A stretch of 64,000 bases of DNA from Acidobacteriota bacterium (GTDB lineage Bacteria; Acidobacteriota; Vicinamibacteria; Marinacidobacterales; Marinacidobacteraceae): NCBI GenBank assembly GCA_022822745.1, contig JAJEAO010000088.1:1-64000 (forward strand). The letters run 5' to 3'. Every line of letters starts with the position of its first letter. The first letter of the stretch is position 1. Under the pieces are notes generated by a model. The model was not told the DNA's origin, did no database searches, and worked only from the letters and a program-made list of their open reading frames with translations. A program made the translations under genes and the position numbers. Positions 16,956 through 37,929 of the stretch are shown in pieces.

Positions 16956-19900
16956 TCAGGCGGCGGTCCGTTGGCCGTAGCTCAGGCGGAACACGACGCC
17001 GGTCATCCAGCGCTTGAAGTCGGGGTCGTCCTGGAAGCGCCGGAAGAGCTCGGTGTCGTCCTGCATGATGGCCATCATCACGCGCTGCAGCGCCCGGTCG
17101 TGCTCGATGCGGGCGTTCTCCCGGTCCGAGTTCTCCCGGGCGTTGCGGAACGCCGGATCCTTCCCCACCATTCCGGGCAGATCCTTCGTGATGATCCTCC
17201 TCACCCGGTCGCTGTCCTCCCACGGAATGTCCCCCCAGCGAGTGTTGAAGTCGGCCACGATGTTGGACAGCAGGTCCAGCTCGACTTCTCCCCTGCCCCC
17301 GCCCTGCTCTCCGAGCACCGGATCGATCTCCGCGTCCGCGTTTTCGAGCAGGATCTTCTGGACGGCCTGCTTCTCGGCCCGGTAGCTGTCCATGTCGATC
17401 GTCTCGAGGATGCCCTTCGAGAGATCGTCCTCCGCGGGTGACGGCAGCTTCGGGATCAGGAAGTTCAGGAAGATGGACAGCTCCTCCCATCGCCTCCGGT
17501 TGTAGGGGAGGATGGAGCCCAGGAACGCGTAGAGCCGCCCGAACGCCTTGGCGCGGCCCTTGAACCGCACCTGTTCGTCCTCGCCAAGGTCGCTCGCATA
17601 GACATCCACGCAGCGGTCGAGGATCGGGTCGAGGACGTCCCGGTCCGCCCCGTCGAGATACCGCTCCACGAACTTCCGCACTTCGTCCGGCGAGTACACC
17701 CCGGCGGCGTCCAGTTCGCCCTGGAGGTCGTGGAGCTTGTTCGGGTCCGTCTCGTCGGCGAGGATCGTCGTCTGGTAGTAGTCCGAAAACGCCTTCTGGA
17801 TCGTGTCGGTGTCGTTCTGAAAGTCGAGCACGAACACGTCGCGCTTCCCCGGGTGCGCCCGGTTGAGCCGGGACAGGGTCTGCACCGCCCGGATTCCCGA
17901 GAGCGGCTTGTCCACGTACATCGTGTGAAGCAGCGGCTCGTCGTAGCCGGTCTGGAACTTCTCGGCGCAGATGAGGAAACGATAGGGGTCCTCGCGGAAC
18001 ATCGCGGCGATCTTCGCGGACGGGAAACCGTTCAGGCTGGTCTCGGTCACGGCCGAGCCGTCGTGCTTTTTCTCGCCAGAGAAGGCGACGATCGCCTGGT
18101 AGGGGCTGCGGCACTCGATCAGATACTGACGGATCGCGTGGAAATACTGGATCGCCCGCGCGACGCGGCTGGTCACCACCATCGCCCGGGCCTTGCCGGC
18201 CACGCGGCGCCGGGCGGCGACCTGCTGGTGGAAGTGGTCCACCATGATCTCGGCCTTCAGGCGGATCGCGTGATCGTGCCCCTCGACGTAACGCCGGAGC
18301 TTCTTGTGGGCCTTCTTCACGTCGAACTCGGGATCGTCGTCCACGCTTCGCGCCAGCCGGTAGTAGCTCTGGACCGGGGTGTAGTGGCGGATCACGTCCA
18401 GGATGAAGCCCTCCTCGATCGCCTGCTTCATGCTGTAGTTGTGGAAGGGCCGGTGCTTGACGGTCCCGTCGCTCTGCGGGGCGGCGGCGCCGAAGATCTC
18501 CAGGGTCTTGTTCTTGGGCGTCGCGGTAAAGGCGAAGTAGCTGGCGTTCGTGAGCAACTTCCTCGACTCCATCAGCCGGTTGATCTGGTCCTCGGTGGTC
18601 TCGTTCTCGCGCTTCGCTCCGGCCTCGCCCAGCGCCTGCGCCATCGCCGCGCTCGTCTTCCCTCCCTGGCTGGAGTGGGCCTCGTCAATGATGATCGCGA
18701 AGGTCCGGCCGCGCTGCCGGTTGCCGATCTCGTCGAGGATGAACGGGAATTTCTGGATCGTGGAGATGATGATCTTCTTGCCCTGCTCGAGGAACCGGCG
18801 CAGGTCGCCCGATTTCTCGGCATGGCCCACGGTGGACCGGACCTGAGCCGACTTCCGGATCGTGTCGCGGATCTGTCGGTCGAGGACGCGTCGGTCGGTG
18901 ACAACGATGATCGAGTCGAAGACCGACTTCCCGTCGCGCTCGAGCGGGATGAGCCGGTGCGCCAGCCACGCGATCGAGAAGCTCTTGCCGCTCCCCGCCG
19001 AGTGCTGGATCAGGTAGCGCTTGCCGGGCCCGTGTCGGCCCGCATCGTCGAGGAGCCGACGCACGACATCGAGCTGCTGGTAGCGCGGCCAGATCTGGAC
19101 CTTCGCCTTGTTCCGGCCCTTCGCGTCCTTCGGCTGCAGGATCTGCGCGTAGTTCTCGAGGATGTCGGCCACGCTCTCCCGGGCAAGGATCCGGCGCCAC
19201 AGGTAGTCCGAGCGGAGTCCCGTCGGGTTCGGCGGGTTCCCAGCCCCGGAGCGCCAGCCGCGGTTGAACGGGAGGAACCACGACCTCCGGCCGCGAAGGT
19301 GGGTGCAGAAATGGACCTCGTTTTCGTCCACGGCGAAGTGCGCGACGCAGCGTCCGAAGCGGAAGAGCGGCTCCCGCGGGCTGCGATCCTTCCGGTACTG
19401 CTCGACGGCATCGCCGACATTCTGCCGCGTCAGGAGGTTCTTCAGCTCGAAGGTGAAGACCGGAAGTCCGTTGATGAAGAGTGCGATGTCCAAGGCGCGC
19501 CCGGTCTGGTCCCGGCTGTAGCGAAGCTGGCGGGTGACGCTGAACCGGTTCTGCCAGAAGAGCCGCCGGGCGGTCTCGTTCGCGGCGGACGGGATGCCGT
19601 AGAACAGGTCGAGGTCGAGAGGCCCGTGCTTCAGCCCGCCGCGCAGGACGGCGATGGTGCCCCGGCGATTGATCTCACCCTGGAGGCGGGCGAGGAACTT
19701 GCGGCGAGTGGGCCCGTCCTCGTCGAGCCGGAGGGCGGGCGCGAGGTCCGGCTGGGTCTCGCGGAGGAAGGCGCGAAGCTGAAAGAGGTCCACGCACCAG
19801 TCGCGGTCGTAGTCGCGGTGATCCCCGGGCGACCAGCCGACCCCGCCGTAGGGGCGCGGCTCTTCTCCGGCTCGCTCGCCCGAGGACGGCTCGCAAGGAT

Positions 19901-19961
19901 CGCCGGTGAGGGCCCGGCAGATCAGTTCCTCGAGGCTCCGCTCGCTCAGGTCACTGCTCAC
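16956..19961 (-). CDS. hsdR: Type I restriction enzyme R subunit (HsdR)
   Basis: Motor-nuclease subunit of a type I restriction system, translocating DNA and cutting away from the site. It has 1001 aa with a GTG start at 19961 overlapping the hsdS stop (GTGA). The N-terminal nuclease region includes ALDIALFINGLPVFTFELKN (Asp, then Glu-x-Lys, about 160-175). The SF2 helicase shows P-loop HSAGSGKSFSIAWLA (about 320), VVTDRRVLDRQI, DEAH box AIIIDEAHSSQ (about 424), FAFTATPKNKT (about 482), TGYDEPLLHTMYVDKPL and QTLSRLNRAHPGK. The C-terminal helical part is complete to FRLSYGQRTAA. It appears intact, unlike hsdM upstream. Confidence 0.95.
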   Translation of the reverse strand: MSSDLSERSLEELICRALTGDPCEPSSGERAGEEPRPYGGVGWSPGDHRDYDRDWCVDLFQLRAFLRETQPDLAPALRLDEDGPTRRKFLARLQGEINRRGTIAVLRGGLKHGPLDLDLFYGIPSAANETARRLFWQNRFSVTRQLRYSRDQTGRALDIALFINGLPVFTFELKNLLTRQNVGDAVEQYRKDRSPREPLFRFGRCVAHFAVDENEVHFCTHLRGRRSWFLPFNRGWRSGAGNPPNPTGLRSDYLWRRILARESVADILENYAQILQPKDAKGRNKAKVQIWPRYQQLDVVRRLLDDAGRHGPGKRYLIQHSAGSGKSFSIAWLAHRLIPLERDGKSVFDSIIVVTDRRVLDRQIRDTIRKSAQVRSTVGHAEKSGDLRRFLEQGKKIIISTIQKFPFILDEIGNRQRGRTFAIIIDEAHSSQGGKTSAAMAQALGEAGAKRENETTEDQINRLMESRKLLTNASYFAFTATPKNKTLEIFGAAAPQSDGTVKHRPFHNYSMKQAIEEGFILDVIRHYTPVQSYYRLARSVDDDPEFDVKKAHKKLRRYVEGHDHAIRLKAEIMVDHFHQQVAARRRVAGKARAMVVTSRVARAIQYFHAIRQYLIECRSPYQAIVAFSGEKKHDGSAVTETSLNGFPSAKIAAMFREDPYRFLICAEKFQTGYDEPLLHTMYVDKPLSGIRAVQTLSRLNRAHPGKRDVFVLDFQNDTDTIQKAFSDYYQTTILADETDPNKLHDLQGELDAAGVYSPDEVRKFVERYLDGADRDVLDPILDRCVDVYASDLGEDEQVRFKGRAKAFGRLYAFLGSILPYNRRRWEELSIFLNFLIPKLPSPAEDDLSKGILETIDMDSYRAEKQAVQKILLENADAEIDPVLGEQGGGRGEVELDLLSNIVADFNTRWGDIPWEDSDRVRRIITKDLPGMVGKDPAFRNARENSDRENARIEHDRALQRVMMAIMQDDTELFRRFQDDPDFKRWMTGVVFRLSYGQRTAA

Positions 19962-21442
19962 CGCTGATCCTCCCCAAGGTTCTCCCCCACCCGGTCCTCC
20001 GTCTCCAACAGAACCTCCTGCTCCCCGTCTCCACCCGATCCGTCCTCATCCAGGGCCTTGGCCGCCTCGCGCACATCCAGCTTCCCGGTGACCACATCGG
20101 AGATGAGTCGCGACCGATACTCCTGTGCGAGGTGAATCTGCCGCCGAACGGTCGCTATCGCGCCACTCGTCCATTTCATGGTACGCGAGAGATGGGCAAC
20201 CACAGCCCTTTGCTCGAGTACCGGTGGCACGACAATCCGGACAGCCGCAGCGCCGCTAGCACTCAGATTACGCATCGTCGTTCCGACGGAGTGGGCTTCT
20301 AGAGCCTGCCGGCCAGGGCCGGAGCCCAAGACATATACCAAGAATGCCGGAAGGAGTGAGGTGCCTACTGTCCGGATGCGCATACTCCCGGTCCCGCAGA
20401 CCCAGCCAGACTCCGTTTGGCCTATTCGAGCACACCGCCCCAGATCCCCGCGTCGCGCCATCACTACGTCCCCATGCTGGAGTCGGTGTCGCTGGAGTTC
20501 GCGAGCCTTCGATGTCGAAACGGTCACACTCCGATTGGATACTACCCGCCCACGCTTCAAGTGGGATGGGTTGATGACGGGTACTTGCCCATCCACGTAA
20601 TCCCTCTGATGGAGTTGACTCCCGAACGGCCCAGTCTGAATCAATTCGCACACTGCTCGAAGTGAAGACACGTGCCAGTGTGAAGGGATCCTGCGCCGAG
20701 ATTCCACTCCCAAGTCCATGTAGGTAGGATGCGGTCGGCCGGTTCGAACATCAATCTGACCCGTGACGGCCTGATGGATGACGGCCTGCTTCTGCTCCTC
20801 CAGCAGCTCGATCAGCCTCATCTTGGCTGAGACATATGCCTCAAGGGCAGCCACGGCGTTGTGCAGATACCGCGCGATAGCCCTCTGCTCGAAGAGTGAT
20901 GGCGTGAGAATCACGAGGCGCTTAAGATCTCTCGTGTACAGATGTACGATCGTAAACCCACACCCCATCTTCGCCTTCTGAGATGCTGCCCCCGGTGCGG
21001 AGGTGGCCCACCCCAGATAATCGGGATCCACGGACGTAACCGGCCGAAGAATAATGACATCACCACCACAACACGCTTGACATCTCATGAGGTTCACCGC
21101 CGACCGGCCGATCTCGTCCGTGGTTTCGCCCGAGCTTGCAAAGAGTACATCGCCATGCCGAATCGGCGTGTAGGAGCTTACGTGAGACTCCGAGACGTAG
21201 GCCTTGGTATTCGTGATATGCGCCTCGTGGAACGTATAGAGATCTCCGTAACGAACGCACGGCACCCCAGACCGAACTTCATCCCGCTTGCTGCCACCAG
21301 AACCCTTTGTGAACCGCCCCAAGGAGCGCAGTTGGCGTACGCCCCACGCAGCTGGGATCTGGCCCAGGCAATCCCGGCCGGAGTCCTTGTAGGCGGCGTA
21401 GGGTCGTAAGCCGCTAGCGGCGATGGCGGGCGCGGTCGTCAC
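19958..21442 (-). CDS. hsdS: Type I restriction specificity subunit (HsdS)
   Basis: Recognises the bipartite DNA target for both methylation and restriction. It has 494 aa. The GTG at 21442 overlaps the stop of the upstream small gene (GTGA), and the N-terminus AAYKDSGRDCLGQIPAAW matches the typical YKDSGxxWLGxIPxxW start of HsdS. There are two target-recognition domains: one after LGRFTKGSGGSKRDEV, and one after RRIPSHWHVSSLRAVCELIQTGPFG. Each is followed by a conserved helix (LFEQRAIARYLHNAV and VLEQRAVVAHLSRTM). Parts of this gene (about 20.2-21.3 kb) look clearly less GC-rich than their surroundings, as is common for exchanged recognition domains. Confidence 0.92.
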   Translation of the reverse strand: MTTAPAIAASGLRPYAAYKDSGRDCLGQIPAAWGVRQLRSLGRFTKGSGGSKRDEVRSGVPCVRYGDLYTFHEAHITNTKAYVSESHVSSYTPIRHGDVLFASSGETTDEIGRSAVNLMRCQACCGGDVIILRPVTSVDPDYLGWATSAPGAASQKAKMGCGFTIVHLYTRDLKRLVILTPSLFEQRAIARYLHNAVAALEAYVSAKMRLIELLEEQKQAVIHQAVTGQIDVRTGRPHPTYMDLGVESRRRIPSHWHVSSLRAVCELIQTGPFGSQLHQRDYVDGQVPVINPSHLKRGRVVSNRSVTVSTSKARELQRHRLQHGDVVMARRGDLGRCARIGQTESGWVCGTGSMRIRTVGTSLLPAFLVYVLGSGPGRQALEAHSVGTTMRNLSASGAAAVRIVVPPVLEQRAVVAHLSRTMKWTSGAIATVRRQIHLAQEYRSRLISDVVTGKLDVREAAKALDEDGSGGDGEQEVLLETEDRVGENLGEDQR

Positions 21443-21687
21443 TCGTCGTCGCTGGCCTTGGCGTTGGTCGCCGCCTCGGGGTCCGGGCGGGGTGGCACTG
21501 CACCCGGCGCCACGATCCGATCGAGGATCGCGGCGAGGCCGGGGTCTCGCCGGATCCTGGCGTGGCTCCACGCCCGCTGTTCCTCGAAAGACATGTCCTT
21601 CGTCTCCTCGTAGATCCGATCCCGAGTCTCGCGCGTCCACTTGACGCAGTCGAAACCCTCGATGGGAGGCCCCCACTTCACGGGCAT
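21439..21687 (-). CDS. Small antitoxin-like protein, copy 2
   Basis: 82-aa protein starting MPVKWGPPIEGFDCVKWTRE. The central part FDCVKWTRETRDRIYEETK with DMSFEEQRAW is closely similar to the neighbouring copy (FDCMKWKRETRDRL, MTWEELTTW), so the two arose by duplication. I recall small proteins with this FDCVKxxRExRxxIYEETKxMSFEE pattern next to PIN-domain toxins, which suggests an antitoxin role. The start at 21687 is one base after the previous stop; a longer start at 21705 would overlap it by 17 bases. The C-terminus is low-complexity and acidic. Its stop overlaps the hsdS start. Confidence 0.65.
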   Translation of the reverse strand: MPVKWGPPIEGFDCVKWTRETRDRIYEETKDMSFEEQRAWSHARIRRDPGLAAILDRIVAPGAVPPRPDPEAATNAKASDDE

Positions 21688-21688
21688 G

Positions 21689-21931
21689 TCACACCCGAGG
21701 CGCATCGAGAGTATCCCTCCCGGCCGCCTGCTTCCGGATCGGCCCGCGGCGGGGGGGCACGATCCGCGCCTTGGGCATGCGCGAGAAGAAGGGATGCCGA
21801 TCCGCCTGTCCTTCCAGCCAGGTCGTGAGCTCCTCCCAGGTCATGGTCGCCATCTTCCGGCTGAGCCGGTCGCGGGTCTCGCGCTTCCACTTCATGCAGT
21901 CGAAACTCTTCTCGCTGCCATCACTCGTCAT
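21689..21931 (-). CDS. Small antitoxin-like protein, copy 1
   Basis: 80-aa protein with the core KSFDCMKWKRETRDRL, then KMATMTWEELTTWLEGQAD, and a basic C-terminal tail (RIVPPRRGPIRKQAAGR). It begins 11 bases before the end of the PIN-domain reading frame and is followed at once by its paralogue, so all are translationally linked. Position right after a PIN domain and the shared core support an antitoxin-like function. That is inference: neither protein has a DNA-binding domain I can recognise. Confidence 0.65.
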   Translation of the reverse strand: MTSDGSEKSFDCMKWKRETRDRLSRKMATMTWEELTTWLEGQADRHPFFSRMPKARIVPPRRGPIRKQAAGRDTLDAPRV

Positions 21932-22376
21932 CGTCGAAATCCTCCGGTGTGCAGATCCCCACGGAACGGTATCCCAAATTCCGGTTCACGCGGTCGTACT
22001 GGCGCATTCGTCTTTCGTTCACGATGTCCCGGAAGTTCCAGCTCACCAGAGCGTCCACCCCCGTCGTCGAGGCGATGGCGATATGGAGGGCATCCGCACG
22101 CATCTTCTCGGTGAGGGCGCCGCTCGCGATGTAATGGTCCGCGAGGGCCCGGGCCTCCGCCGTGAGCTGGACGCGCTCGGTAGCCTCGGGGGGCAGAGAG
22201 AAAAAGGCATCCTGAACGGCCTTCGGAGCACCATCGAGCTCCTCCAACATCACGGAGGACACGACCAGGGTGATCTCGCCGCCCGCGACTCGATCCATCA
22301 GGCGGCGCGACGCGGTCCGAAACTCCTCGTCCTCGCACCCACCGATGACCGAGGTGTCGGCATAGACCCGGAGCTT
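21921..22376 (-). CDS. PIN-domain RNase-like module, in frame with HsdM
   Basis: About 151 residues with PIN-fold marks: KLRVYADTSVIGG (first Asp), a helix and SSVMLEELDG (acidic residues), RADALHIAIASTTGVDALVSWNFRDIV (the later Asp residues and the SWN motif). Such domains are usually VapC-like toxin RNases of about this size starting with M(K)LRVYxDTS. No ATG, GTG or TTG stands in frame just before KLRVYADTS, and no stop separates it from the HsdM C-terminus, so as written it is a fusion. Two antitoxin-like genes follow. It could also be a free toxin whose start codon was lost. Confidence 0.75.
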   Translation of the reverse strand, partial: KLRVYADTSVIGGCEDEEFRTASRRLMDRVAGGEITLVVSSVMLEELDGAPKAVQDAFFSLPPEATERVQLTAEARALADHYIASGALTEKMRADALHIAIASTTGVDALVSWNFRDIVNERRMRQYDRVNRNLGYRSVGICTPEDFDDDE

Positions 22377-24544
22377 GCGGTACCTGACCCGTGACTCGCG
22401 GGCGAGGAAACCTCCGGTGATCTGGCTGAGCAGGCCCTCGGCCTCGCGCTCGGTGGCGAGGATGTCCGCGGTGATCTCCTCCAGCGTGCGCATCGGCTTG
22501 GGCTTGTAGAACACCCGGTTGAAGCTGATCTCGTAGCCGATCTTGACGCTGCCCTCGTCGTACCAGGCGTCCGCCGCCCACGGCAGCACCTCCTGCCGGA
22601 GGAAGGCCTCGATGCCACCCTCCTCGAGGAGCGAGATCTGCTCGGTGTCGCGAAGCTCGGAGTCCCTTTCGTACTCGACGACGCGCGTCCCCCGCCCCTC
22701 GCCGACCGCGAAACGCCCGCGGATCGGATCGGCGGCCGTTCCCCGGGGCAGCACCTTGTCAATGACCGGCTCCGCCGCCTCGTCGCGGTCCGCGAGATGG
22801 GCGTGAAGCAGCCCCCTCCGCTTGATCGTGAGTCTGGTCCTCCGGCCGCCGAGCCGCTTCAGCTCACCCCTCACCTCGTCCTCGACCGCGGCCAGATGCC
22901 GGTGCGGGCCGGCGCCGATGCGCTCCGCGACCGCTCCCGCCGCCTCGGCGAGCGCCGGATCTCCCGCCGCCCGGCACGCCACCCAGAACGGCTCCAGCCG
23001 CGCCTCCGAGAGATCCACCGCGAGCCGCAGCGGCCGATCCACCGTGACCCTCCAGTGGCCGAAGAAGCGGTTCTCGAAGATCCGGCTCTCCTCGCTCTCC
23101 TCGAAGTCGAGGAAGGTCCGGCAGATCCGCTCGATCTCCGCCTCGCCGAGCTCGCAGTTCTTCTGGCCCAGGTTCTTGCGGAGCGGCCGGAACCAGTTCG
23201 TCGCATCGATCAACTGCACCTTGCCGCGGCGGTGCTCGGGCTTCCGGTTCGTGAGAACCCAGATATAGGTGGCGATCCCGGTGTTGTAGAACATGTTCAG
23301 CGGGAGGGCGACGATCGCTTCCAGCCAGTCGTTTTCCAGGATCCAGCGCCGGATGTTGCTCTCCCCTGCCCCGCCGACCCGGTGAAGAGCGAGCTGCCGT
23401 TGTGGACTTCGGCGATGCGGCTGCCGAGTTTCGTCCCCCGCTTCATCTTGGAGAGCATGTTCACGAGGAAGAGCATCTGCCCGTCGCTCGTCCGCGTCAC
23501 GAGCGAGTACTCGGGATCTCCGGCGTGCTCGATCACGAAGCGCGGATCGCGCATCTCCTTCTTGCCGCCCATCCGCTTCAGGTCGGTCTTCCAGCTCTTC
23601 CCGTAGGGCGGGTTGGAGAGCATGAAGTCGAACTCCCGATGCCCGAACGCGTCGCTGGAGAGCGTGGAGTGCTCGGGCCCGCCGATGATGTTGTCGGCGG
23701 CTCGCCCCTCCCCCTTGAGGAGGAGGTCGGCCTTGCAGATGGCGTAGGTCTCGCCGTTGATCTCCTGCCCGTAGGGATGGGCCGAGACCTCCTTGCCGCG
23801 GTCCTCCGCGATCTGCTGCAGCACTTCCTCGGCCACGGTCAGCATGCCGCCGGTCCCGCATGCGCCGTCATAGAGCAGGTAGGTGCCGGACTCGATCCGG
23901 TCGGCGACGGGGAGGAAGACAAGCTTCGCCATCAGAGTCACGGCGTCGCGGGGCGTGAAATGCTCGCCCGCTTCTTCGTTGTTTTCCTCGTTGAACCGCC
24001 GGATCAGCTCCTCGAACACGGTCCCCATGCCGTGGTTGTCCAGCCCCGGACGAAGGATCTCGCCGTCCGGCCCCCGGATGGGCTCGGGGCCCAGATTCAG
24101 CTCGGGGGCGGTCAGCTTCTCGATGAGCGATCCGAGCGCGTCCGCCTTCGAGAGACGGGGGATCTGGTTGCGGAACTCGAAGTTGTCGAGGATCTCCTGC
24201 ACGTTCGGCGAGAAGCCGTCGAGGAAGTCCTCGAAGTCGGCGCGGAGCTGCTGCCGGCTGGCGCGGGAGCGGAGGTCGTGGAGGGTGAACTTCGACGTGT
24301 TGTAGAACGCCTGCCCGGCGGCCGAACGGAGCGGGCCATCCTGCTCGACGAGCCCGATCCGGTCCACGGTCTCCTTCATGGCGAGCACCTTCTCCCGGGT
24401 GGGCTCGAGGACCGCATCCAGCCGCCGGAGGACGGTCATCGGAAGGATCACGTCCCGATACTTGCCGCGGACGTACACGTCGCGGAGAACATCGTCGGCG
24501 ATACCCCAGATGTAGCCGGCGACCCAGCTCAGATCCCGGTTCAC
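21921..24544 (-). pseudogene. hsdM: Type I methyltransferase HsdM, frameshifted, read through into a PIN domain
   Basis: The N-terminal frame (GTG at 24544) gives an HsdM start MNRDLSWVAGYIWGIADDVL, GEHFTPRDAVTLMAKL, SAM motif YDGACGTGGM and catalytic motif FDFMLSNPPYGKSWK, and is normal to SSLFTGSAGQG. There the frame is lost. The continuation ESNIRRWILENDWLEAIVAL and FYNTGIATYIWVL is in another frame. One missing G in the run at about 23363-23366 explains the change. The second frame finishes the HsdM C-terminus (EEITADILATEREAEGLLSQITGGF) and, with no stop, continues into a PIN domain ending at 21921. The broken frame may be a real mutation, phase variation in a short G run, or a sequence error. 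Confidence 0.85.
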
Positions 24545-27002: not shown

Positions 27003-30000
27003 ATGAGAGTGGAGGTCGTTCGCTGCGCGCCCCCGGTGAACGAGAGCGAGCGGCTGGCCGCCGACCAGCTCAAGACGCGCCTGATCTCCCAGCTCGGAGA
27101 CGGGACGTGGTGGCTCTTCACGAACCTCCTGTTCTCCGCCACCCCGGAACGCCAGCCCGACGAGATCGACATCGTGGCCCTCGGGCCTCCGGGGATCCGT
27201 CTCATCGAGGTGAAGCACTGGACCGGCTCGTGGGTCCGGCGGCACCCCGGCCGGGTCGAGGACGAAGCGGATCGCGTCACGCGCAAGGCGCAGCGACTCG
27301 GCACCACGCTTCGCCGGACCGTCGCGAGTCTCCGCTTCGTCGAGGGGGTCTTCCTCGTCACCGAGTCCGCCCGCAAGGTGCGAGAGCTCCGGAAGCTGGC
27401 GCCGGTTCGGGGCGTGCCGTTCTACACGCTCCCGACCTGGCGCGAGGCGCTGGGGCTCGGCGCCCCGGCCACGCTTTCCGAAGGCGAGGTCGAGGTTCTC
27501 GCCCATCAACTCAAGCGCCGCCAGCCGCCCGGTCGAGCGAAGCGGCCCCAGCGAATCGCCGGATACACGAACCTGAAGCTGCGGTCCCCGACGGAGGAGC
27601 GCTTCCACCGAGTGTTCGACGCGGTTCACCATTCGCGTCAGGATCGCGTCGTTTTGCACCTCTACGACCTGTCGGCGGGAGAGGATCACGGGCAGCCGGA
27701 GCGGGACTGGAAGCGGCTCCACGAGCTGCAGCGCTATGGATGGGCGCCTCGCCTCGTGGATTCGCTCCAGGATCTCCCCGGCCACCACGGCGAAGTGCAG
27801 TTCTTCACGGCCGCGAACGAAGCGGCCCCCGACCTGCGCCGCCGCGTGGCGGACGCGGACTGGGATTCCCGCGACCGGGTGAAGTTCGCCGCCGAAACGG
27901 TTTCGGGGCTCCGGGAACTGTGGAGCGCCGGAAGTCCGGACGGCGAGCTGCTTCGGGCGGCCGCCCTCAGCGACAAAGTGATCCGCGTCCGCCAGGACCA
28001 GACCCCGCTCTTCGACACCTTCGTCCCCTTCCCCTCGTCGGAGAGCGACAGGCCGGAATCCGGCGGAGGGGACGCGTCTGCGCCCGCAGACGCCGCCGAA
28101 GACGGTGTGAACGCGCTTCTCGCGATGCTGGCCGATGTCTTCGAGGGCCGGAAGGATCGCTGGGGACGCGGGGCCCGCGAGATCCTCGAACGCTGGCCGC
28201 GAACCGCCCCGCCGAAGCGACTCGGAAACATCGGTTCGGCGCTCACCGAGTTATCCGAAAAAGCAGCGAAGCCCGCGCCCGGGAACGCGGATTCGTGGGC
28301 GGAGGGAGAGGAGATTCACTGCGACGGCCACCTCTACCGCGTTGTCGCGCCGATCGGCGTCACTTCCGCCATCCGGAACTTCCAGGTCGTGGAACTGGAT
28401 CAGGCCACCGGTCGGGAACTCGGGGCGCACATCGCGCTGGCGTCGGCCGACGAAGCCGCGGGGCGGGATCTCCGCGCCGCGTACGCTCGGGCCGCCTCCC
28501 TGCCCGCTCACCCCTGCCTCGGAGCAGTCGGCGCCGTAGCGCCCGAGTGGCGCCCCGATCGGTTTGCGGCCGTGCTGCCGGCAAGCGACGGCGCTTCCCT
28601 TGATGAGTACTCCGGGGTGCTCCCGATTCTGGCCGAGGACCTGGGCGAATCCTCGACCGAGGCGCTCGTCCTGAGGTGGCTGCGCGGCGTCTGCGGCGCG
28701 CTCGACGTGATGCACCGGAACGGCGTGGTCCATCGGAATGTGCGTCCCGGCAACCTGATCGTCACCGGAGGCGACCTCGTGCTCTCCGGCCTCGAGCGGG
28801 TCGAACGCTCCGATGCGACGCGACCGGCATCGGGACGCGCCACCGCGCAGGACGATCTTCGCGCCCTGGCAAAGAGCATCCACGACGTTCTGTGGCCCGA
28901 AGAAACCACGGATCCCTCGACACAAGTCGAACACGAAGCGGACCGGGACGAGTTCCCGGTGGTCGCACCGTTCCTGGATCGCGCGATGGGAGGCGATTCC
29001 GGGCGACCGCTCGACTCGGCGGCGGAGGCCCTCCGGCTCCTGAGCCCGAAGGAGGAACCTCGGGATGTCGCGCCCGAGCCGCGGTCCCGAAACCGCGTTC
29101 CGTGGCTGCGTCAGCTTCTCCAGTCCTATCCGGGGTCGCGCTGGGGAAACCGCGAAACGCGCGGGCTGGACAGCGAGTTCGCCGAGAAGACCTATGTTCC
29201 GACCGAGCTGGAGGTGTCCCTGGAACAGGACATCCGGGAGCGCCGCGTCCGCCTGGTGGTTCTCTGCGGGAACGCCGGTGACGGGAAGACGGCGCTCCTG
29301 CAGCATCTCGCCAGGCGCCTCGGGATCGGGACGGCCAGCTCCGCCGAGCGAATTCTCGAAGGCAGGCTGTCCGACGGCGGGACCGTGCGCATGAACTTCG
29401 ACGGCTCCGCGGCGTGGGACGGACGGTCCGCGACCGAGCTGCTCGACGAGTTCCTGAACCCCTTCCAGCAGGGGCCGCCCGAGGAGGATCTCGTTCATCT
29501 GCTCGCGGTCAATGACGGCCGGCTCCTCGAGTGGATCGAGGAGTACGAGAGCGAGACTCCCCTCACCGAGGCGCTCTCGGAGGCCGTTTACGGCAACCTG
29601 CCCGCCGAGGCTTCACACATCCGGTTCGAGAATCTGAACCACCGCTCGCTGGTGGGGAAGCGGACATCCGATGGATCCCGAGTCGAGACCCGCTTCGCCG
29701 ACCGGCTCGTTGACGCCCTCTACGGCGGCGAAAGCGCCGCCGAGACGTGGCGCCCCTGTCGGACCTGCACGGCGCAGGAGCGTTGCGAGGTCTTCCGCGC
29801 GGCCAGCGTCTTCGGTCCCGCGCCGCTCGCTCCGGCTGAAGTACGCGACCGTGCGCGCGGGCGGCTCTTCGAGGCGCTCCAGGCGGTCCATCTCCGTGGA
29901 GAGACCCACATCACCGTGCGCGAGCTTCGCGCGGCGCTGGTGTACATCCTCTTCGGGACCGACGACTGCGAGGACTACCACGAGAGCGACCGACCCGCCG

Positions 30001-30836
30001 GGTCCAGGCCCCGCTACGGCGAACGCGCCTTCGCGCCCCGGTCCCGAGCGCGGCAGGGAGAGGTTCTGAAGGAGCTGGTGCGGTTCGACCCGGCGCTGGA
30101 ATCGGATGCGCGGCTGGATCGCGCTCTGTGGAAGGAGCACCTCGCCCGGATTCCCGAGACGGATCTGGCGCTCTCCCATCGAACGCTGCTCGGTGAGCTT
30201 CGCCGGTGGGCGTACTTCGAGGGCGACATCTCCGGCGGCGGTGGCGCGCCGCTCGCCGGGGGCGCGAACCTCCAACGCTTCCTCGATCTGGCGAGTGGGT
30301 CCGAGTCCGCGGAGCTGACGCGTCGTCTCTGCGCCGGGATTTCCCGGCTGCAGTCGCTGCCCGATGCGGCCCTCGACCGACCCGATGTGGTTCCCCTACC
30401 GATCAATCCCCGAACGCCCACGGAGACCGCCTTCTGGGTGGAGAAGCCGCTCGCCTCGTTTCGGGTGGAACCCGATCGGGCGCGCGTCGCGGGGGACGCC
30501 GGTTGGCTCCACCGACGAGCGCTCCTGATCTACCACTACGACGACGGGAGAGAGGAACAGCTCCCGCTGGGCGCCGAGCTGTTCCACCTCCTGCTCGAGC
30601 TGGGCGGGGGCCGACAGTTGGGCGACGCCGGGACGGAGGGGGCGTTCGCCCGACTCTCGATCTTCGTCCAGCGGGTCATGCAGGAAGACGAGCGGAGGAT
30701 CATGGCCTGGAATCCAATGCGGGAGGATCAGGTGTTCGAAGTGGAGGCAGCCGTCGAGCGGGAAGCAGGCGAGCTGCGACAGATGCTCCGGATCACTCCG
30801 GCGGGAACCGAGGGCGACGGTGGCCAGGAGCTCTGA
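27003..30836 (+). CDS. NERD nuclease - pseudokinase - NTPase protein, MAD6-like
   Basis: 1277-aa multidomain protein. Residues 15-130 form a NERD nuclease-like domain: QPDEIDIVAL (D56) and LIEVKHWTG (E69, K71) match the PD-(D/E)xK core. Residues about 435-650 resemble a protein kinase, but the usual Lys strand reads ELGAHIALAS, the HRD loop reads HRNVRPGNLIV and DFG is absent, so it is probably a pseudokinase. From about 750 comes an NTPase with P-loop LCGNAGDGKTALLQHL, then a possible zinc cluster CRTCTAQERC (about 919-928). This architecture resembles the protein kinase MAD6 of the methylation-associated defence system, and also PglW. It overlaps the next gene by 17 bases. Confidence 0.75.
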   Translation: MRVEVVRCAPPVNESERLAADQLKTRLISQLGDGTWWLFTNLLFSATPERQPDEIDIVALGPPGIRLIEVKHWTGSWVRRHPGRVEDEADRVTRKAQRLGTTLRRTVASLRFVEGVFLVTESARKVRELRKLAPVRGVPFYTLPTWREALGLGAPATLSEGEVEVLAHQLKRRQPPGRAKRPQRIAGYTNLKLRSPTEERFHRVFDAVHHSRQDRVVLHLYDLSAGEDHGQPERDWKRLHELQRYGWAPRLVDSLQDLPGHHGEVQFFTAANEAAPDLRRRVADADWDSRDRVKFAAETVSGLRELWSAGSPDGELLRAAALSDKVIRVRQDQTPLFDTFVPFPSSESDRPESGGGDASAPADAAEDGVNALLAMLADVFEGRKDRWGRGAREILERWPRTAPPKRLGNIGSALTELSEKAAKPAPGNADSWAEGEEIHCDGHLYRVVAPIGVTSAIRNFQVVELDQATGRELGAHIALASADEAAGRDLRAAYARAASLPAHPCLGAVGAVAPEWRPDRFAAVLPASDGASLDEYSGVLPILAEDLGESSTEALVLRWLRGVCGALDVMHRNGVVHRNVRPGNLIVTGGDLVLSGLERVERSDATRPASGRATAQDDLRALAKSIHDVLWPEETTDPSTQVEHEADRDEFPVVAPFLDRAMGGDSGRPLDSAAEALRLLSPKEEPRDVAPEPRSRNRVPWLRQLLQSYPGSRWGNRETRGLDSEFAEKTYVPTELEVSLEQDIRERRVRLVVLCGNAGDGKTALLQHLARRLGIGTASSAERILEGRLSDGGTVRMNFDGSAAWDGRSATELLDEFLNPFQQGPPEEDLVHLLAVNDGRLLEWIEEYESETPLTEALSEAVYGNLPAEASHIRFENLNHRSLVGKRTSDGSRVETRFADRLVDALYGGESAAETWRPCRTCTAQERCEVFRAASVFGPAPLAPAEVRDRARGRLFEALQAVHLRGETHITVRELRAALVYILFGTDDCEDYHESDRPAGSRPRYGERAFAPRSRARQGEVLKELVRFDPALESDARLDRALWKEHLARIPETDLALSHRTLLGELRRWAYFEGDISGGGGAPLAGGANLQRFLDLASGSESAELTRRLCAGISRLQSLPDAALDRPDVVPLPINPRTPTETAFWVEKPLASFRVEPDRARVAGDAGWLHRRALLIYHYDDGREEQLPLGAELFHLLLELGGGRQLGDAGTEGAFARLSIFVQRVMQEDERRIMAWNPMREDQVFEVEAAVEREAGELRQMLRITPAGTEGDGGQEL

Positions 30837-32649
30837 CTCGAACCCCCGCGCGCTCGTGCGCGAGGTGCTGCCCCGCGCCATGGCGGACCGGATCTGGTCG
30901 GCGAGTTACCGCAAGGTGCTCCCGGTGGACCTCCAGGACTTCGATCTGCAGGATGTGCTGCCGGCGGTGTTCTATCTGTTCCGCTACGGCTTTCGTCGAG
31001 GCAAGGGGCGCTTCCTGGACGCCTTCTCCCCGCCGGACCTCGCGAACCTCCCCGAGCGAAGGCGAAAGACCACGGCAAAGCGCATCGCCAGCGTCCTGTC
31101 GCGGCGCCCGGATCTGGACGGATTCCGTGGAGAAACGGAGCAGGCCGTGCTCGCCGATCTCCTGCTCTGCTTCTGCGTCCAGAACGCCCGGCGCGCCCTG
31201 GGTCGCGATCAGCAGGTGCAGCGGGTGGCGCCCACGCACTTTTTCGCGAGCTGGATCGATCTGCCTGCCAGCGCGGCAAGCCTGCGCCATGTTCCGGAGA
31301 TGCTGACGGCAGTCCTGGCGAACCAGGAGGGACCCAGTGTGGAGAGGACCGTCAAGGGTCCGACATGGTTCGCCGTGGCGAATCCGCGCCGGAGCGCGAA
31401 GCGGACCAACCTGTTGCTGGAACCGTTCACAGGCGGAATGCAGTGGTCGAAGGTCGGCGCGGACCTCGCTGGCGACAGGTTCGACGAGGACGAGAAGTCA
31501 CTGGGTCACGACCAGGTTCTCACCGTTCGCCTGGCCCAGCAGCTCAAGCAGGCGCCGATCAAGCTGCGGGGCAAGGCGGGGTCGCGGATCCCGAACCAGC
31601 GGCCGATCGGACGGAGGTCGGCGGAACGCTTTTCCGAGGACATTCGCCGCTTTGTGCGGGGATACTCCGGATCCATGCCGAGGCAGGTCTTCCTCGACTG
31701 TCTGGAGTCCTCGGTGACGATCGGCCTGACCACGATCCTGGGCGGCAGCGCCGAAGTGCTGTTCCACTGGATCGAGACGGGGGAAGTCCTCCGGCCTACT
31801 GATCAGCGTCCACCGCCACTGCTGGTGGACTGCTCCCGCGGTCTCGACTGGACGATCCGCCGGCACGCCGAGGACTCCATGGATGACTTCACGCGCCGGC
31901 TTTCCCGCCTCCCGGAAATCCTCATGGCGCTGCGGCTTCTGGACTACACGGTGTGGGGAAACCGGCGCACGAAGACGGACGCGAGGCGAACCCCGTCCCG
32001 GCCCGACCCCAGCGACTGGATCCGACTGCTCGGGAAGATCCTTCACGGACGTCACGAGGGGGCCAATTCGATCCACGAACGGCTCTACGAATACGGTCAG
32101 GATCTGGCGGACACCCTCGACGCCGACCATCCGGAGATCGCGGCGGCGCTGCGCGACGAGGGCAGGCAGTCGAACGCAGTCCGGCGGCTCGCCACGGGTC
32201 TCACGCGCCTCATGGGACGCGGGGTGACGACGGGGAGGCTCTTCATTTTTCTGGACTCCGGGGCCGGCGTCGGCGGACCGAATGCGCTCGTGCACAAGCG
32301 AAGGACAACGCGAGGAACAGACGCGGCGAGTGGGCCGCGCAGCAGGCAAGTGCGGTCGCTCGTGTTCGGCGATTCGATGCTGGAATACCTGGTCCATCGC
32401 CACTTGCTGAACACCCGAGGAAAGCAGCGACCACTGTCCGTGCAGGCGTTCCTGCGCGTGATCCAGACCCGTTACGGGTTCCATGTGGACACGCCTCCAC
32501 GGCACTTCGCGGTCTCGGGGGATCTCCTGCAGCGGAACCGCTCCTTCCTGGAGCGACGACTGCGGGATCTCGGACTCCTCCGCGGCGTGAACGACGCCGA
32601 ATCCATGAAGCGGCTGCGGCCGCGATTCACTCCGGGTGCCGCATCGTGA
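30820..32649 (+). CDS. Unknown middle gene of the module, MAD7-like
   Basis: 609-aa soluble protein with a GTG start inside the 3' end of the MAD6-like gene. No catalytic motif stands out. The N-terminal half is helical (LPAVFYLFRYGFRRGKGRFLD, FCVQNARRALGRDQQVQRV). The C-terminal region has GDSMLEYLVHRHLL, QAFLRVIQTRYGFHVDTPP and LQRNRSFLERRLRDLGLLRG, the last two looking like a winged-helix or other small DNA/protein-binding fold. By position between MAD6-like and MAD8-like genes, and by size, it corresponds to MAD7. DptG of the phosphorothioate restriction system is an alternative positional analogue. Confidence 0.6.
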   Translation: MARSSDSNPRALVREVLPRAMADRIWSASYRKVLPVDLQDFDLQDVLPAVFYLFRYGFRRGKGRFLDAFSPPDLANLPERRRKTTAKRIASVLSRRPDLDGFRGETEQAVLADLLLCFCVQNARRALGRDQQVQRVAPTHFFASWIDLPASAASLRHVPEMLTAVLANQEGPSVERTVKGPTWFAVANPRRSAKRTNLLLEPFTGGMQWSKVGADLAGDRFDEDEKSLGHDQVLTVRLAQQLKQAPIKLRGKAGSRIPNQRPIGRRSAERFSEDIRRFVRGYSGSMPRQVFLDCLESSVTIGLTTILGGSAEVLFHWIETGEVLRPTDQRPPPLLVDCSRGLDWTIRRHAEDSMDDFTRRLSRLPEILMALRLLDYTVWGNRRTKTDARRTPSRPDPSDWIRLLGKILHGRHEGANSIHERLYEYGQDLADTLDADHPEIAAALRDEGRQSNAVRRLATGLTRLMGRGVTTGRLFIFLDSGAGVGGPNALVHKRRTTRGTDAASGPRSRQVRSLVFGDSMLEYLVHRHLLNTRGKQRPLSVQAFLRVIQTRYGFHVDTPPRHFAVSGDLLQRNRSFLERRLRDLGLLRGVNDAESMKRLRPRFTPGAAS

Positions 32650-35600
32650 CGCGCGAGCCGTCCCGGACCGCCGCCCTGCTGGGTCGAACCCTCGAGACGT
32701 TGCTCGGCAGCGCCGAGGACGGCGCCATCGCCTTCGTGCGGTGCCTGTCTCCGGACATGGTCGAGCGCCTTGCCCGGAGCGCCTCCTTCGCTCCCGAGGG
32801 ATGGCGGGTTCTGCGCGTCGCCGCGGAAGAAGATGTCTCCTCCCGGACGATTCCCGCCGACCGCGCCGTGGAGGAGCGCGAGTCCAAGGGCGGCGCGTTG
32901 CTCCTGCTCGTGGACACGGCCCTCGCCGGCGCCGGGATGGACGGGATCTACAGCGCCAGTCGGGAGGTGACGGAGGCCGACCTCTTCGACCGGGCGGCGC
33001 GAATCGGCGCCGACGAGATCCAGAGAAGGTGCGGCGCCCCCGTCCGCCGCTATGCGGAGCGAGCGATTCGCGCCGCCCGGCGCGGCCCGTTCCCGAGCGC
33101 CCGCTCGGACGAGTTCGACTTCCTGTGTCGCGTGGCCGGAGGGGAGGATCCCCCGGGTTCCCATCTGGCCGGACTCGGACTCTGGCCGGTCGCCGATGAT
33201 GCGGAAGCGGAACCCGGGGAGGCTCTGAGACTCTCGCGACTCTTCGCGACGCGGCTGCTGGGCGCCGCCGGCTCGCAGCTTCCGCCGGACGAGCGGGTCC
33301 GCGGTCTCCGCATCGATCCGGACCTGCAGGCGGCGCAACGACGGCTGGAACAGTTCCTCCACCGCGTGGACACCCTGCCCGCGCGCGAGGCGCTGCGACA
33401 ACTGGAGCAGCATCGCGAGCTCTGGGTCGGCCCCCTCCGGCTTCAGCCGACGGACCGGATCCGGGGGATCGAGCTCAAGTCGTGGCGCAACCGCAACGGC
33501 ACCCTCGCCAGATGGTCCGGACTGAAGCCGGGGCCGGACCCCGAGTCGCCCCCGGAGCTCGTGCTGCGTCTGACCGGAGGCGATCGGGACGCCACCTCCT
33601 TCCTCGAGGTGCGTTGGAAGACGGATCCCCCGGGGCTTCCCGCGGGCGCCGTGGAGTACCAGGTCTCGGTTCGCACCGATCAGGACGAGCTGCTCGCGGT
33701 GAAGGAACCGCAGCATCGCGGTCTGAAAGGGGGAGAGAAGGTCCGCTTCACCGCCGAGGACCTGGAGGATATGCCCGAGGACGCAGTGGTCTCGGCTTCG
33801 GTCGTCCTCGAAGTCGTCGGCCAGACCGACAGGATCGAGCCGGGAAGGAGCGAGGAGTTCCAGATCCGCTTCGGAGACCCCGGCGAGATCGCCGCCACCG
33901 GCGCCGGGAAGGAGGTCCGCGCGTTCAGCGAGGGGCTCATCGAACTCCCGGATCGGGCTGCCGTGACCCGGGCGGTCTCCGGACCCGACCGGGCCCGATG
34001 GGACCCCGGCAAGCAGTGGGTGACTCTCTCGACTCCGGTCGTGAAGGGCCGACGCCGCAGCTTCAGGGTGCGCCGGCCGGCGCTCATCGCCGAGGTCGAA
34101 GACGAGTGGGCGGCCCGGCAGGGGGAGCCCGGCCGCTGGACCGTCCATGTGCGCGCGGACGGCAGCCTGGCGGGGAGCCCGGCATTCGAGCCGGTCCCCG
34201 GAGAGGAGAGCGAGGCGTGGGAGCGGATCCTGTCGGCCAGCCGCCGGCTCTCCCGCCGCTTCGCGGACGGCGGGGGTCTGGCACAGGTGTACGACGACGC
34301 CCGAGCCGTCATCCCGGTGGTGCGGGAGTACCTCGCCGGGTGGTCCGAGGTCATGGAGTCGGACTCCCCCGACCTTGCGCTCGCGAATACGCTTGAGGTC
34401 CGTCAGCAGTCGGGACGCACGATCGGTCTCATCGTGCTCCCGGCGCACCCGATCCGGGTCGCCTGGCACGCGGCCTACGACAGCCTCGTCTTCCACGCCG
34501 CGTTCGTCCACGAACGGAAGCCGAACGAGGTTCGGAAGGAGCTGGCGAGCCTGGACGGGGCGATGTTTCCGGCCTTCCTCCCGAATCCCGCCGGGGGCGC
34601 CTTCGTCTTCGCCGACATGCTCGGATTCCAGCTTCCGGCGATGGTTCCGGACCTGGATCCGGAGCCCAAGGCCGCGGTGGCCCTGCTCGCCCGGGCCCTT
34701 GGCGGGGGCCGGGCGGCGGAGCAGACGCCGACCGTCGGGGGCCGCAGCGCCCGGGCCCTGGCTTCCGAAGTGATCCGCTACCTAGAAGCGCACCACCGCC
34801 CGCGCGTCCTCGGCATGCATGCCCTCCGGGCCGGCGACGGTCTGACCGTCGCCCGGGCGCTGGGGCAGGTCCACGAGGAGATGAACCGGGGGGAGGCGGG
34901 CGAGACGCGAGACCCGGAGAGCGAGGTCACCTTCTCCCTGGACCTCTATCCGTCGGCGGAGGGGCGCTATCTCTCGGGACGCTTCATCACCGAGGCCCGC
35001 GAGAAGCGGCGAACCCGGGCGGCCGGCCTGGCCGAAGAGGACCGGTGGATGCTGGGCTCACTGAACCTCCCGGGCGGGGTGACGCCGCCGCGTCTGCGCT
35101 GGGCCCGAAAGGAGGAGGAGATCCCCCGGACCGGCGCCCACCTGGCGGCGGCGTTCGACACCTTCGACTCCACTGTGGAGGTGGCCCCCGGCGAAGGACA
35201 GTCAAGGAACCGCCCGTTCCACGCCTACGGGCTCTCCTCGTTCTACGAGCGCCGCTACCGGAGCGCCCCCGCGCCGACCTGGACCAGCCGGCCGGCCGTC
35301 GGCGCGACCGGCGAGAAGCACCCCGGGCGGCGGGCGCACACGGAAGCCCTGGTCCGAGTCCAGAACGCGATCGAGAGCGCGGTGGCGCGGCATCTCGGAG
35401 AACCGGAAGGGTCTCCCGTGCTGCAGACCCGGATCACGCCGGAGAAGTCCGAGAGCCTGGAGAAACTCCATGGGCTCGCCGACTGGGTGGTCACGCTGGA
35501 TCGGAACGCCGGGATCGAGTACTTCGATTCCCCCCGGGAGCACCGCAACATCTACGATGCCTACGTCATCGACTGCGTGCCGGAGCGCGAGGATCTGGGC

Positions 35601-37751
35601 TGCCTGCAGCTCATCACCTCGACCGCGAACCTGGACGAGATCCGGAGCATCCTCGACCCGGCTCTCGGCCGGATGGGACTGCCCCAGAGCCAGCGGAACG
35701 CTGACTTCCTGCTGGAGCAGCTCAAGGCGCTCAGCGGTCGGCTCGCGATCCGGCTCACCGGACAGCACCCTCCGGCCGCCGAACTGGTCGCGCTGGCGGT
35801 GACCCGGGCCAACTGCCGCATCGGAGAGGACGAGGGCTGGGTCTCCCTTCGCGACGGCTTCCTGGTCCCGGTGGACGATGTCCGGGAACTCCTCCCTCCG
35901 CTGCGGGACGGGGCGAAGAACGACGCTGGCGGGGCGTCGCGGCCCGACCTGATCTTCGTCTCCATCGTGCGCCGGCGGCTCTGCCTCCGGTTCATCGAGG
36001 TCAAGTATCGGCGTCATCTGCGCGCCGCGAGAGCCCCCGAGACGCTGAACCGGATCTCGCGCCAGACCGGAGAGTTCCGGAAGCGGTGGGAGGCCTGCTA
36101 CGGCCTCGAGGCGCCGGGCATCTTCCGGGCCATCCGGCGGGCCACTCTCGCGCGGGTGCTGCGGTTCTACGCGGACAAGGCGGCTCGCCACGAGCTCTCG
36201 GCCGAACGGCGCGAGGCGCTGGTGGCCGAGATCGCCGCCATGATCCGGAGCGGCGGACGCTACGCCTTCGCGGATCCGCCGGAGGGCGACCTGGGGTGGA
36301 TCTTCTGTCCCGAATACACCGGCGCCAGACCGCTCGGGATCTGGTCGGATCCCGGTGGCGCGCGGGTCTATCTCTGTGGACCGGGCGCCATGCTGGAACC
36401 GGGTGGATCGGCCGCCGCGCCGCGCCCGGAGTCCGGCGACGCCGACCCGCGGAAGGCGCGGAGGGCCCCCGAGTCACCGGCGCCGGCGCCGGTGCCTCGA
36501 GGCGACCAGACGGAGAGTCCCCCGTCCGCGTCGGATGCAGGCGGCTCGGAACCGCCAGCGACAAACAGCTCTCCCGGGAAATCGTCAGCGACTGGCGACT
36601 CTCCCAGGAAATCGTCGGCGACTGGCGACTCTCCCGAGGAATCGTCAGCGGGCGGCGACTCCCCTGCGACGGCGGCGGGCGACTCTCCCGCCGGTCCCGC
36701 CCGCGTCAGGCTGGGGAAGGACACGCTCACGGACACCTCGGTGGAGTGCGCGCTGTCGGTGAAGGGCAATCCGCACCTCCTGATCGCCGGACTGCCGGGG
36801 ATGGGGAAGACCACCTGTCTCGTGAATCTGTGCCGTCAGATGGTCCGTCAGGGCGTCCTGCCCATCGTGTTTTCCTACCACCAGGACATTGATGCGAGCC
36901 TGACCGAGGCGGTGGGTCCGGTGCGGTTCGTGGATTTCGACGGTCTCGGCTTCAACCCGCTGGAGGTGATCGCCCGCGGGAAGTTCGGCGCCCATCTCGA
37001 TGTCGCGGGCGCGATCCGCGACATCTTCGCCGCGATCTACCCGGAGCTCGGCGATGTCCAGACCGAGATGATCCGGAGCGCGGTCAAGCAGAGCTTCGAG
37101 GAAGCCGGCTGGCGCCGCGATGAATCCGGCGAGCGACTGCCTCCCTTCGGACGCTTCATGGAGATCCTCCGCGGACACCCGAAGCCGGACCGCAGCCTGC
37201 ACACGCTGCTCGCCCGCCTCGGAGAACTCGACGACTACGGCCTGTTCGCGCCTGCCCCGGACGGCTCGACCGGACTCTGGACCGGCGACCGGCCCACGGT
37301 CGTGCGCGTCCACTCGACGCAGAACGAGGTTCTGCAGCGCGCCTTCTCGTTCCTCGTCTTCTATGGGCTCTACAAGGACATGTTCCGGCGGGGCATCGGC
37401 GAGAAGATCACCCACGCGCTGGTCTTCGACGAGGCGCACCGGGCGGCGAAGCTGAAGCTGCTCCCGACGATGGCGAAGGAGTGCCGCAAGTACGGGGTCT
37501 CGCTCGTCCTCGCGTCGCAGGAAGCCCGCGACTTCCATACCTCGGTGTTCTCGGCCATCGCGAACTACCTGATCCTCCGGTGCACCGAAGCCGACGCCAG
37601 AGCGCTCGTCCGGAATGTCGCCACCCGACGCCAGGAGCAGCGACTCGTGGATCGGATCAAGCAGATGGAGCGGTACCACGCGCTCCACTTCAGCGAGGGA
37701 CGGGCGCGACCCGCGCAGGTGGCGCTGGAACCGCCGGCGCGTCCGGGCTGA
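32646..37751 (+). CDS. Large HerA/FtsK-superfamily ATPase, MAD8/DptH-like
   Basis: 1701-aa protein with a GTG start in the overlap GTGA with the preceding gene. The N-terminal region (AFVRCLSPDMVERL, GGALLLLVDTALAGAGMDGIY) and the long middle region match no enzyme I can name. A Ser/Gly/Asp-rich linker with three 10-residue repeats lies at about 1308-1345. The C-terminal ATPase has P-loop IAGLPGMGKTTCLV (about 1381), Walker B HALVFDEAHRAAK (about 1588) and ASQEARDFH, as in HerA-type motors. Size and layout fit the ATP-binding MAD8 protein or DptH. It is probably the DNA-translocating effector arm of a defence system. It ends 186 bases before trpE. Confidence 0.75.
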   Translation: MTREPSRTAALLGRTLETLLGSAEDGAIAFVRCLSPDMVERLARSASFAPEGWRVLRVAAEEDVSSRTIPADRAVEERESKGGALLLLVDTALAGAGMDGIYSASREVTEADLFDRAARIGADEIQRRCGAPVRRYAERAIRAARRGPFPSARSDEFDFLCRVAGGEDPPGSHLAGLGLWPVADDAEAEPGEALRLSRLFATRLLGAAGSQLPPDERVRGLRIDPDLQAAQRRLEQFLHRVDTLPAREALRQLEQHRELWVGPLRLQPTDRIRGIELKSWRNRNGTLARWSGLKPGPDPESPPELVLRLTGGDRDATSFLEVRWKTDPPGLPAGAVEYQVSVRTDQDELLAVKEPQHRGLKGGEKVRFTAEDLEDMPEDAVVSASVVLEVVGQTDRIEPGRSEEFQIRFGDPGEIAATGAGKEVRAFSEGLIELPDRAAVTRAVSGPDRARWDPGKQWVTLSTPVVKGRRRSFRVRRPALIAEVEDEWAARQGEPGRWTVHVRADGSLAGSPAFEPVPGEESEAWERILSASRRLSRRFADGGGLAQVYDDARAVIPVVREYLAGWSEVMESDSPDLALANTLEVRQQSGRTIGLIVLPAHPIRVAWHAAYDSLVFHAAFVHERKPNEVRKELASLDGAMFPAFLPNPAGGAFVFADMLGFQLPAMVPDLDPEPKAAVALLARALGGGRAAEQTPTVGGRSARALASEVIRYLEAHHRPRVLGMHALRAGDGLTVARALGQVHEEMNRGEAGETRDPESEVTFSLDLYPSAEGRYLSGRFITEAREKRRTRAAGLAEEDRWMLGSLNLPGGVTPPRLRWARKEEEIPRTGAHLAAAFDTFDSTVEVAPGEGQSRNRPFHAYGLSSFYERRYRSAPAPTWTSRPAVGATGEKHPGRRAHTEALVRVQNAIESAVARHLGEPEGSPVLQTRITPEKSESLEKLHGLADWVVTLDRNAGIEYFDSPREHRNIYDAYVIDCVPEREDLGCLQLITSTANLDEIRSILDPALGRMGLPQSQRNADFLLEQLKALSGRLAIRLTGQHPPAAELVALAVTRANCRIGEDEGWVSLRDGFLVPVDDVRELLPPLRDGAKNDAGGASRPDLIFVSIVRRRLCLRFIEVKYRRHLRAARAPETLNRISRQTGEFRKRWEACYGLEAPGIFRAIRRATLARVLRFYADKAARHELSAERREALVAEIAAMIRSGGRYAFADPPEGDLGWIFCPEYTGARPLGIWSDPGGARVYLCGPGAMLEPGGSAAAPRPESGDADPRKARRAPESPAPAPVPRGDQTESPPSASDAGGSEPPATNSSPGKSSATGDSPRKSSATGDSPEESSAGGDSPATAAGDSPAGPARVRLGKDTLTDTSVECALSVKGNPHLLIAGLPGMGKTTCLVNLCRQMVRQGVLPIVFSYHQDIDASLTEAVGPVRFVDFDGLGFNPLEVIARGKFGAHLDVAGAIRDIFAAIYPELGDVQTEMIRSAVKQSFEEAGWRRDESGERLPPFGRFMEILRGHPKPDRSLHTLLARLGELDDYGLFAPAPDGSTGLWTGDRPTVVRVHSTQNEVLQRAFSFLVFYGLYKDMFRRGIGEKITHALVFDEAHRAAKLKLLPTMAKECRKYGVSLVLASQEARDFHTSVFSAIANYLILRCTEADARALVRNVATRRQEQRLVDRIKQMERYHALHFSEGRARPAQVALEPPARPG
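36571..36684 (+). repeat. In-frame 30-bp tandem repeat in the MAD8-like linker
   Basis: Three consecutive 30-base units at 36571-36600, 36601-36630 and 36631-36660, then a shorter degenerate unit. They encode SPGKSSATGD, SPRKSSATGD and SPEESSAGGD. The unit length keeps the frame, so copy number could vary without breaking the protein. It forms a flexible linker before the C-terminal ATPase. Confidence 0.85.
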
Positions 37752-37770
37752 GGCCGCCGGAGCCCCCTTG

Positions 37771-37880: not shown

Positions 37881-37923
37881 GGTCGCGCCGAGCAGGGCAG
37901 GAGACGGAGCCCTCCATACACCC

Positions 37924-37929
37924 TACACT
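37924..37929 (+). promoter_or_regulatory. Probable -10 element for trpE (near-leaderless)
   Basis: TACACT ends 8 bases before the ATG at 37938. No leader peptide or attenuator hairpin fits between it and trpE, so classical trp attenuation is unlikely here. Confidence 0.45.

Follow-up and report, generated by a model that had tools for sequence, protein, structure and literature searches.

The hsdM-PIN gene and its operon

Exploring the minus strand of the window (the whole stretch of 64,000 nucleotides that was analysed), we found that EREAEGLLSQITGGFLARESRVRYRKLRVYADTSVIGG forms a single open frame reaching its stop codon at 21921. The HsdM tail, ending GLLSQITGGF, runs through LARESRVRYRK into LRVYADTSVIGG and on through a complete PIN domain that ends at 21921. 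The first-pass annotation had claimed that the hsdM frame enters a complete PIN domain without a stop codon and that no ATG, GTG or TTG stands where a free PIN protein should begin, and the window sequence bore out both points. No stop codon lies at the joint; the linker (ITGGFLARESRVRYRKL; about 22371 to 22421, 17 codons) contains neither a stop codon nor an ATG, GTG or TTG; the 14 codons that precede the PIN are free of these start codons; and the PIN span (21924 to 22370) is likewise without a stop codon. The PIN domain, at 21921 to 22370 including its stop codon, was classed as VapC-like by Pfam PIN_3, by alignment, by a residue table and by the fold match of the homologue in genome G005 to VapC structures. 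In isolation it scored 27.9 bits against PIN_3, for which the cut-off is 27, and it keeps the acidic residues of YADTS, EEL, DALH and GVD. Given that unfused HsdM relatives stop 4 to 14 residues past ...EGLLxEI, HsdM carries the PIN at its native C-terminal end. In free PINs of the same family, a start codon lies a few residues upstream of the point at which the window PIN begins.

The annotation had also read 21921 to 24544 as one frame, which holds for the C-terminal half of HsdM together with the PIN but not for the N-terminal half, which lies in a different frame. The N-terminal part (23379 to 24544, GTG start at 24544, frame running to about 23378) carries HsdM_N (2.5e-22) and the first two thirds of N6_Mtase (2.9e-28) and is 80% identical to the G005 homologue, while the C-terminal part (22422 to 23372), in the second frame, carries the end of N6_Mtase (2.2e-16) and the tail, assigned also by alignment and tree. 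Between them is a one-base frame break inside GGGGCAGGGGAGAGC (23369 to 23379, near 23,373), where the match to Pfam N6_Mtase is interrupted between 23375 and 23372 as the profile passes from 192 to 191. All 17 intact relatives in the alignment are uninterrupted at this position. Since the intact relatives lack the break and the remainder of the gene is undamaged, comparison of the sequences indicates that it is a recent local lesion or an assembly error; a programmed frameshift was considered and rejected because the relatives have no break. The break lies about 1 kb upstream of the junction and leaves it unaffected. The same genome carries another hsdM-like N6_Mtase gene (contig C19, about 37471 to 38446), also in two frames, which is split at an intragenic (TC)17 tract (1481 to 1514 of the extracted locus, L147) and looks like a phase-variable methylase.

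The genes that follow hsdM-PIN on the minus strand overlap one another throughout. Antitoxin-like gene 1 (21689 to 21931, 80 aa) has an ATG overlapping the PIN stop codon and is itself overlapped by antitoxin-like gene 2 (21439 to 21705, 88 aa). The stop codon of the latter is overlapped by the GTG of hsdS (19958 to 21442; Methylase_S, Specificity_I 3e-78), a predicted start in an open frame that extends to 21676, and the stop codon of hsdS is overlapped by hsdR (16956 to 19961; HSDR_N, SWI2_SNF2, TIGR00348). The annotated succession of antitoxin-like genes, hsdS and hsdR is thus correct, and the same order is kept in relatives; the window hsdR has 68-73% identity with its counterparts in G005 and G002. 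With HsdM_N and N6_Mtase in hsdM (whole in relatives, divided between two frames in the window), target-recognition domains in hsdS, and HSDR_N plus a helicase in hsdR, all in one operon, the gene content identifies the locus as a type I restriction-modification (R-M) operon.

Adjoining it on the plus strand, a divergent block (27003 to 37751) encodes a NERD protein that has both an SspF-like ATPase region and a weak kinase-like match, an uncharacterised protein with a marginal SspG match, and a 1932-aa protein whose C-terminus is DndH/HerA-like; this block is possibly an Ssp/Dnd-like defence cluster. In a Meiothermus taiwanensis plasmid (locus L177, 5525 to 7324), hsdM, which there encodes a close HsdM relative, is separated from hsdS by a DUF262 gene. 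This arrangement suggests that the slot between the two genes takes different accessory genes.

Distribution and descent of the fusion

A 249-residue query spanning the junction was searched against 100 genomes, including the window's own. Two genomes of the same family but of other genera, G005 and G002, matched over the full 249 residues at 60-62% identity without a stop codon, so that three genera of one family have the same junction; in most other genomes of the 100 the match stopped at the HsdM C-terminus or spanned a free PIN only. A PIN alignment scan with one genome per species gave 80 loci. From all sources, a PIN at the C-terminus of an HsdM frame was found in 27 copies from 26 genomes, belonging to Acidobacteriota (Bryobacterales, other Terriglobia, Thermoanaerobaculia and Vicinamibacteraceae), Gemmatimonadota and Gammaproteobacteria, with the qualification that some gammaproteobacterial contigs are short and binning errors are therefore possible. 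Complete uninterrupted fused ORFs numbered 19: 17 of 813-871 aa, one of 890 aa (L036) and one of 841 aa (L102). Going by isolate prefixes, many of the genomes are presumably marine sponge or coral MAGs.

One might suspect that a stop codon was lost in this one genome through a point change or an assembly error, the more so as the same gene has the one-base frame break upstream. The chance of this is negligible, and the relatives rule it out: the same junction recurs in independent assemblies from many projects, among them a chromosome-level assembly (L043, on a record of 6.2 Mb that bears the title 'chromosome: 1'), and in the 19 complete ORFs. With the fused gene present in about 26 genomes from three phyla, the HsdM-PIN fusion is a genuine architecture, and sequencing error does not account for it. 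The annotation had proposed looking in related genomes for this junction, and had named an HsdM stop codon followed by a separate PIN start in relatives as the finding that would speak against it. Nearly all relatives lack such an arrangement; the exceptions are L143, with a stop codon immediately upstream of the PIN, and L145, with an HsdM stop codon followed by a PIN that lacks one catalytic Asp and carries the partner domain. Both belong to a genus that has intact fusions, and their separate states look like derived breakage.

Production of a free PIN from an internal start was rejected as a general mode, because neither the window nor L045 has a start codon within 14 codons of the PIN. An ATG stands directly before RVYADTS in four loci (L032, L034, L037 and L038), and other start codons occur within the 14 codons before the PIN in most loci. 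Among the matches listed from 3,084 plasmid records with HsdM relatives, all end at the native C-terminus; the PIN query matched only three Leptospira plasmids; and of 15 loci on viral contigs none matched across the junction.

In the PIN tree, a branch (SH-aLRT 93) separates 58 free PINs from the fused PINs, with L102, whose HsdM belongs to a different subfamily, at the boundary; the free PINs thus form a separate group, with the same partner gene. In the HsdM tree fused and unfused proteins interleave, supported branches force at least five changes, and grouping of the fused HsdM rows as one clade was rejected (p-AU 9.9e-75, L102 left out). Since the fused HsdMs are not one clade, a single PIN lineage has become fused with several lineages of HsdM or has disappeared from them, and so the PIN cassette has been repeatedly gained or lost.

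The PIN domain and its antitoxin-like partner

The catalytic D, E, D, D residues are kept in all 27 HsdM-fused PINs, according to the residue table. In a Gemmatimonadota/gammaproteobacterial cluster of seven loci, pN/pS was 0.12 for the PIN, 0.24 for the C-terminal 150 codons of HsdM and 0.68 for the linker (15 codons), the last a weak value from few sites. AlphaFold modelled the PIN of the G005 fusion with pLDDT mostly 80-90, while the methylase core was poor (mean 62; pTM 0.31), and a Foldseek search with this model was led by the VapC toxins VapC15, VapC1, VapC20 and VapC11, of which VapC20 is a sarcin-ricin-loop cutter by its PDB title. The model thus shows a VapC fold for the fused PIN; a sequence search of the PDB with the PIN profile returned nothing meaningful.

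The partner gene, mostly of 65-90 aa and with the motif FD[CA]VxxxRxxRxxIxxExxxMsxEE, overlaps the PIN stop codon in 26 of 26 located fused loci. The same overlap is found in most free PIN loci, including those of Methanophagales and ANME-1 archaea, and about 20 of the 58 free loci have no detectable partner. At 23 of the 26 fused loci the partner or partners are followed by hsdS, and often by hsdR too where the contig extends far enough. Searched against Pfam and NCBIfam, the partner matched no family above cut-off. Two or more antitoxin-like genes were present at 10 of 26 fused loci versus none of 58 free loci (Fisher p = 2e-6, a value that serves only as a guide since the loci are related).

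Four second copies of the PIN carry the partner domain in the same chain (L033, 6772-7461; L143, 8247-8948; L144, 6748-7749; L145, 7169-7876), and all four have lost a catalytic residue, so that active-looking PINs are those that keep a separate partner. Such loss in all four is what one would predict for a toxin that must be under separate and removable control, and the chains themselves are possible decoys. AlphaFold gave a confident model of one of them (pLDDT 89.5, pTM 0.70), in which the partner is helical. The small proteins are best read as antitoxins that silence the PIN, a label that rests on gene order, overlap and the natural PIN-partner fusions. Two further arrangements were seen. 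The L144 chain reads antitoxin-PIN-antitoxin, and at L140 (contig C45, 1-2000, of G000, the genome to which the window belongs) a free PIN of this family and its partner, whose frames are broken close to the poor end of a contig, are followed by a repeat array, PFSGATAPASLK in translation, that looks like a CRISPR array.

Possible function and relation to known systems

From these observations we infer toxicity of the PIN, its neutralisation by the small proteins and a trigger for its release. The PIN would cleave tRNA or rRNA and thereby stop translation, and the small helical proteins would bind and silence it. HsdM is a component of both the M2S and the R2M2S complexes of type I systems, and its presence in every one of them is one reason why an RNase carried on it would be coupled to the condition of the R-M complex. 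The other reason is that HsdM requires its C-terminal region to assemble with HsdS: without its C-terminus, HsdM of EcoKI does not assemble with HsdS, as cited in PMC6158711. Loss of labile antitoxins, upon loss of the operon or shut-off by a phage, would free the PIN and arrest the cell, and so would capture of the complex by an anti-restriction factor of a phage. A single unit would then combine modification, restriction and a suicide arm, and the R-M system would be self-policing. We give about even chances to this proposal as a whole, namely a type I R-M operon whose methylase bears a VapC-like PIN that is controlled by antitoxins and freed on antitoxin loss or capture of the complex. As for the trigger, PrrC-like sensing of anti-restriction and plain addiction fit just as well as the annotated loss of modification.

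Plain addiction on its own would mean that a PIN-antitoxin module was inserted after hsdM and joined to it, killing cells that lose the operon but sensing neither phage nor the condition of the R-M complex. Two-gene modules of this family do occur in free form, and PIN and partner remain next to a decayed hsdM in L143, L144 and the first copy of L146; yet a free module would suffice for this purpose, and the fusion of one PIN lineage to several HsdM lineages suggests that the covalent link itself is selected. We therefore hold addiction alone to be unlikely, though a serious candidate. The PIN may instead be a structural or regulatory appendage and not a toxin, for example one that trims hsd mRNA. 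Many R-M systems restrain their own expression, and toxicity of the PIN is a prediction; however, 27 of 27 fused PINs retain an intact active site, and free PIN modules of bacteria and archaea have the same overlapping partner, which makes such a role improbable. Slightly poorer still are the prospects of a local effector, in which tethering brings the RNase to transcripts of the DNA under R-M action, so that phage mRNA is cut near unmodified DNA and the cell survives: this agrees with the position of the PIN on a DNA-bound subunit, at a C-terminal region needed for HsdS assembly (PMC6158711), but it leaves the dedicated, often repeated antitoxin-like genes unexplained.

The self-policing R-M operon proposed here resembles PrrC-EcoprrI, in which the gene of a translation-blocking RNase lies in a type Ic hsd operon and the RNase is held by the R-M system and released on its inhibition (PMC3506569, PMC12707154). 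Here too an RNase gene is inside the hsd operon, and the same hold-and-release logic is proposed. However, PrrC is a separate ABC-ATPase/HEPN anticodon nuclease masked by Hsd subunits and is reported with no antitoxin (PMC3506569, PMC12707154), whereas the PIN is covalently part of HsdM and is accompanied by antitoxin-like partner genes; by analogy we propose that HsdM-PIN works like PrrC-EcoprrI, yet is not a member of that system. With VapBC it shares the PIN toxin fold, the conserved acidic residues and a small overlapping partner gene, but the toxin is fused to HsdM and the partner is downstream, often in tandem copies; the DNA-binding VapB-type antitoxin is usually encoded upstream, and the partner, besides its position, gave no Pfam or NCBIfam match of this kind above cut-off. 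HEPN and other toxin RNases associated with R-M systems are likewise linked or fused to R-M components (PMC3710099, PMC3506569). PARIS guards an R-M system, senses anti-restriction and stops growth (PMC12707154), a purely functional comparison as no gene in common was identified. No family model covering the fusion was found in Pfam, NCBIfam or PADLOC, and a full-text literature search outside subscription journals found no report of it. We rate HsdM-PIN as a putative R-M-coupled toxin, a general kind already known.

More tentatively, the methylase subunit may be a holster for an RNase toxin for which tandem antitoxins set the threshold, a disabled R-M complex or loss of the operon freeing the toxin directly, and the cassette may be an exchangeable C-terminal effector that moves between HsdM lineages; together these would define a new class of R-M guardian, a possibility that we put below the general proposal. 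HsdM-PIN does not fit two general statements in the literature: that methylases are avoided when toxin RNases (HEPN) are fused to parts of R-M systems, and that typical antitoxins are missing from immunity loci. If true, it would join methylation, the marking of self, covalently with a toxin-antitoxin module, and the idea of coupling between immunity and suicide would become testable in one gene.
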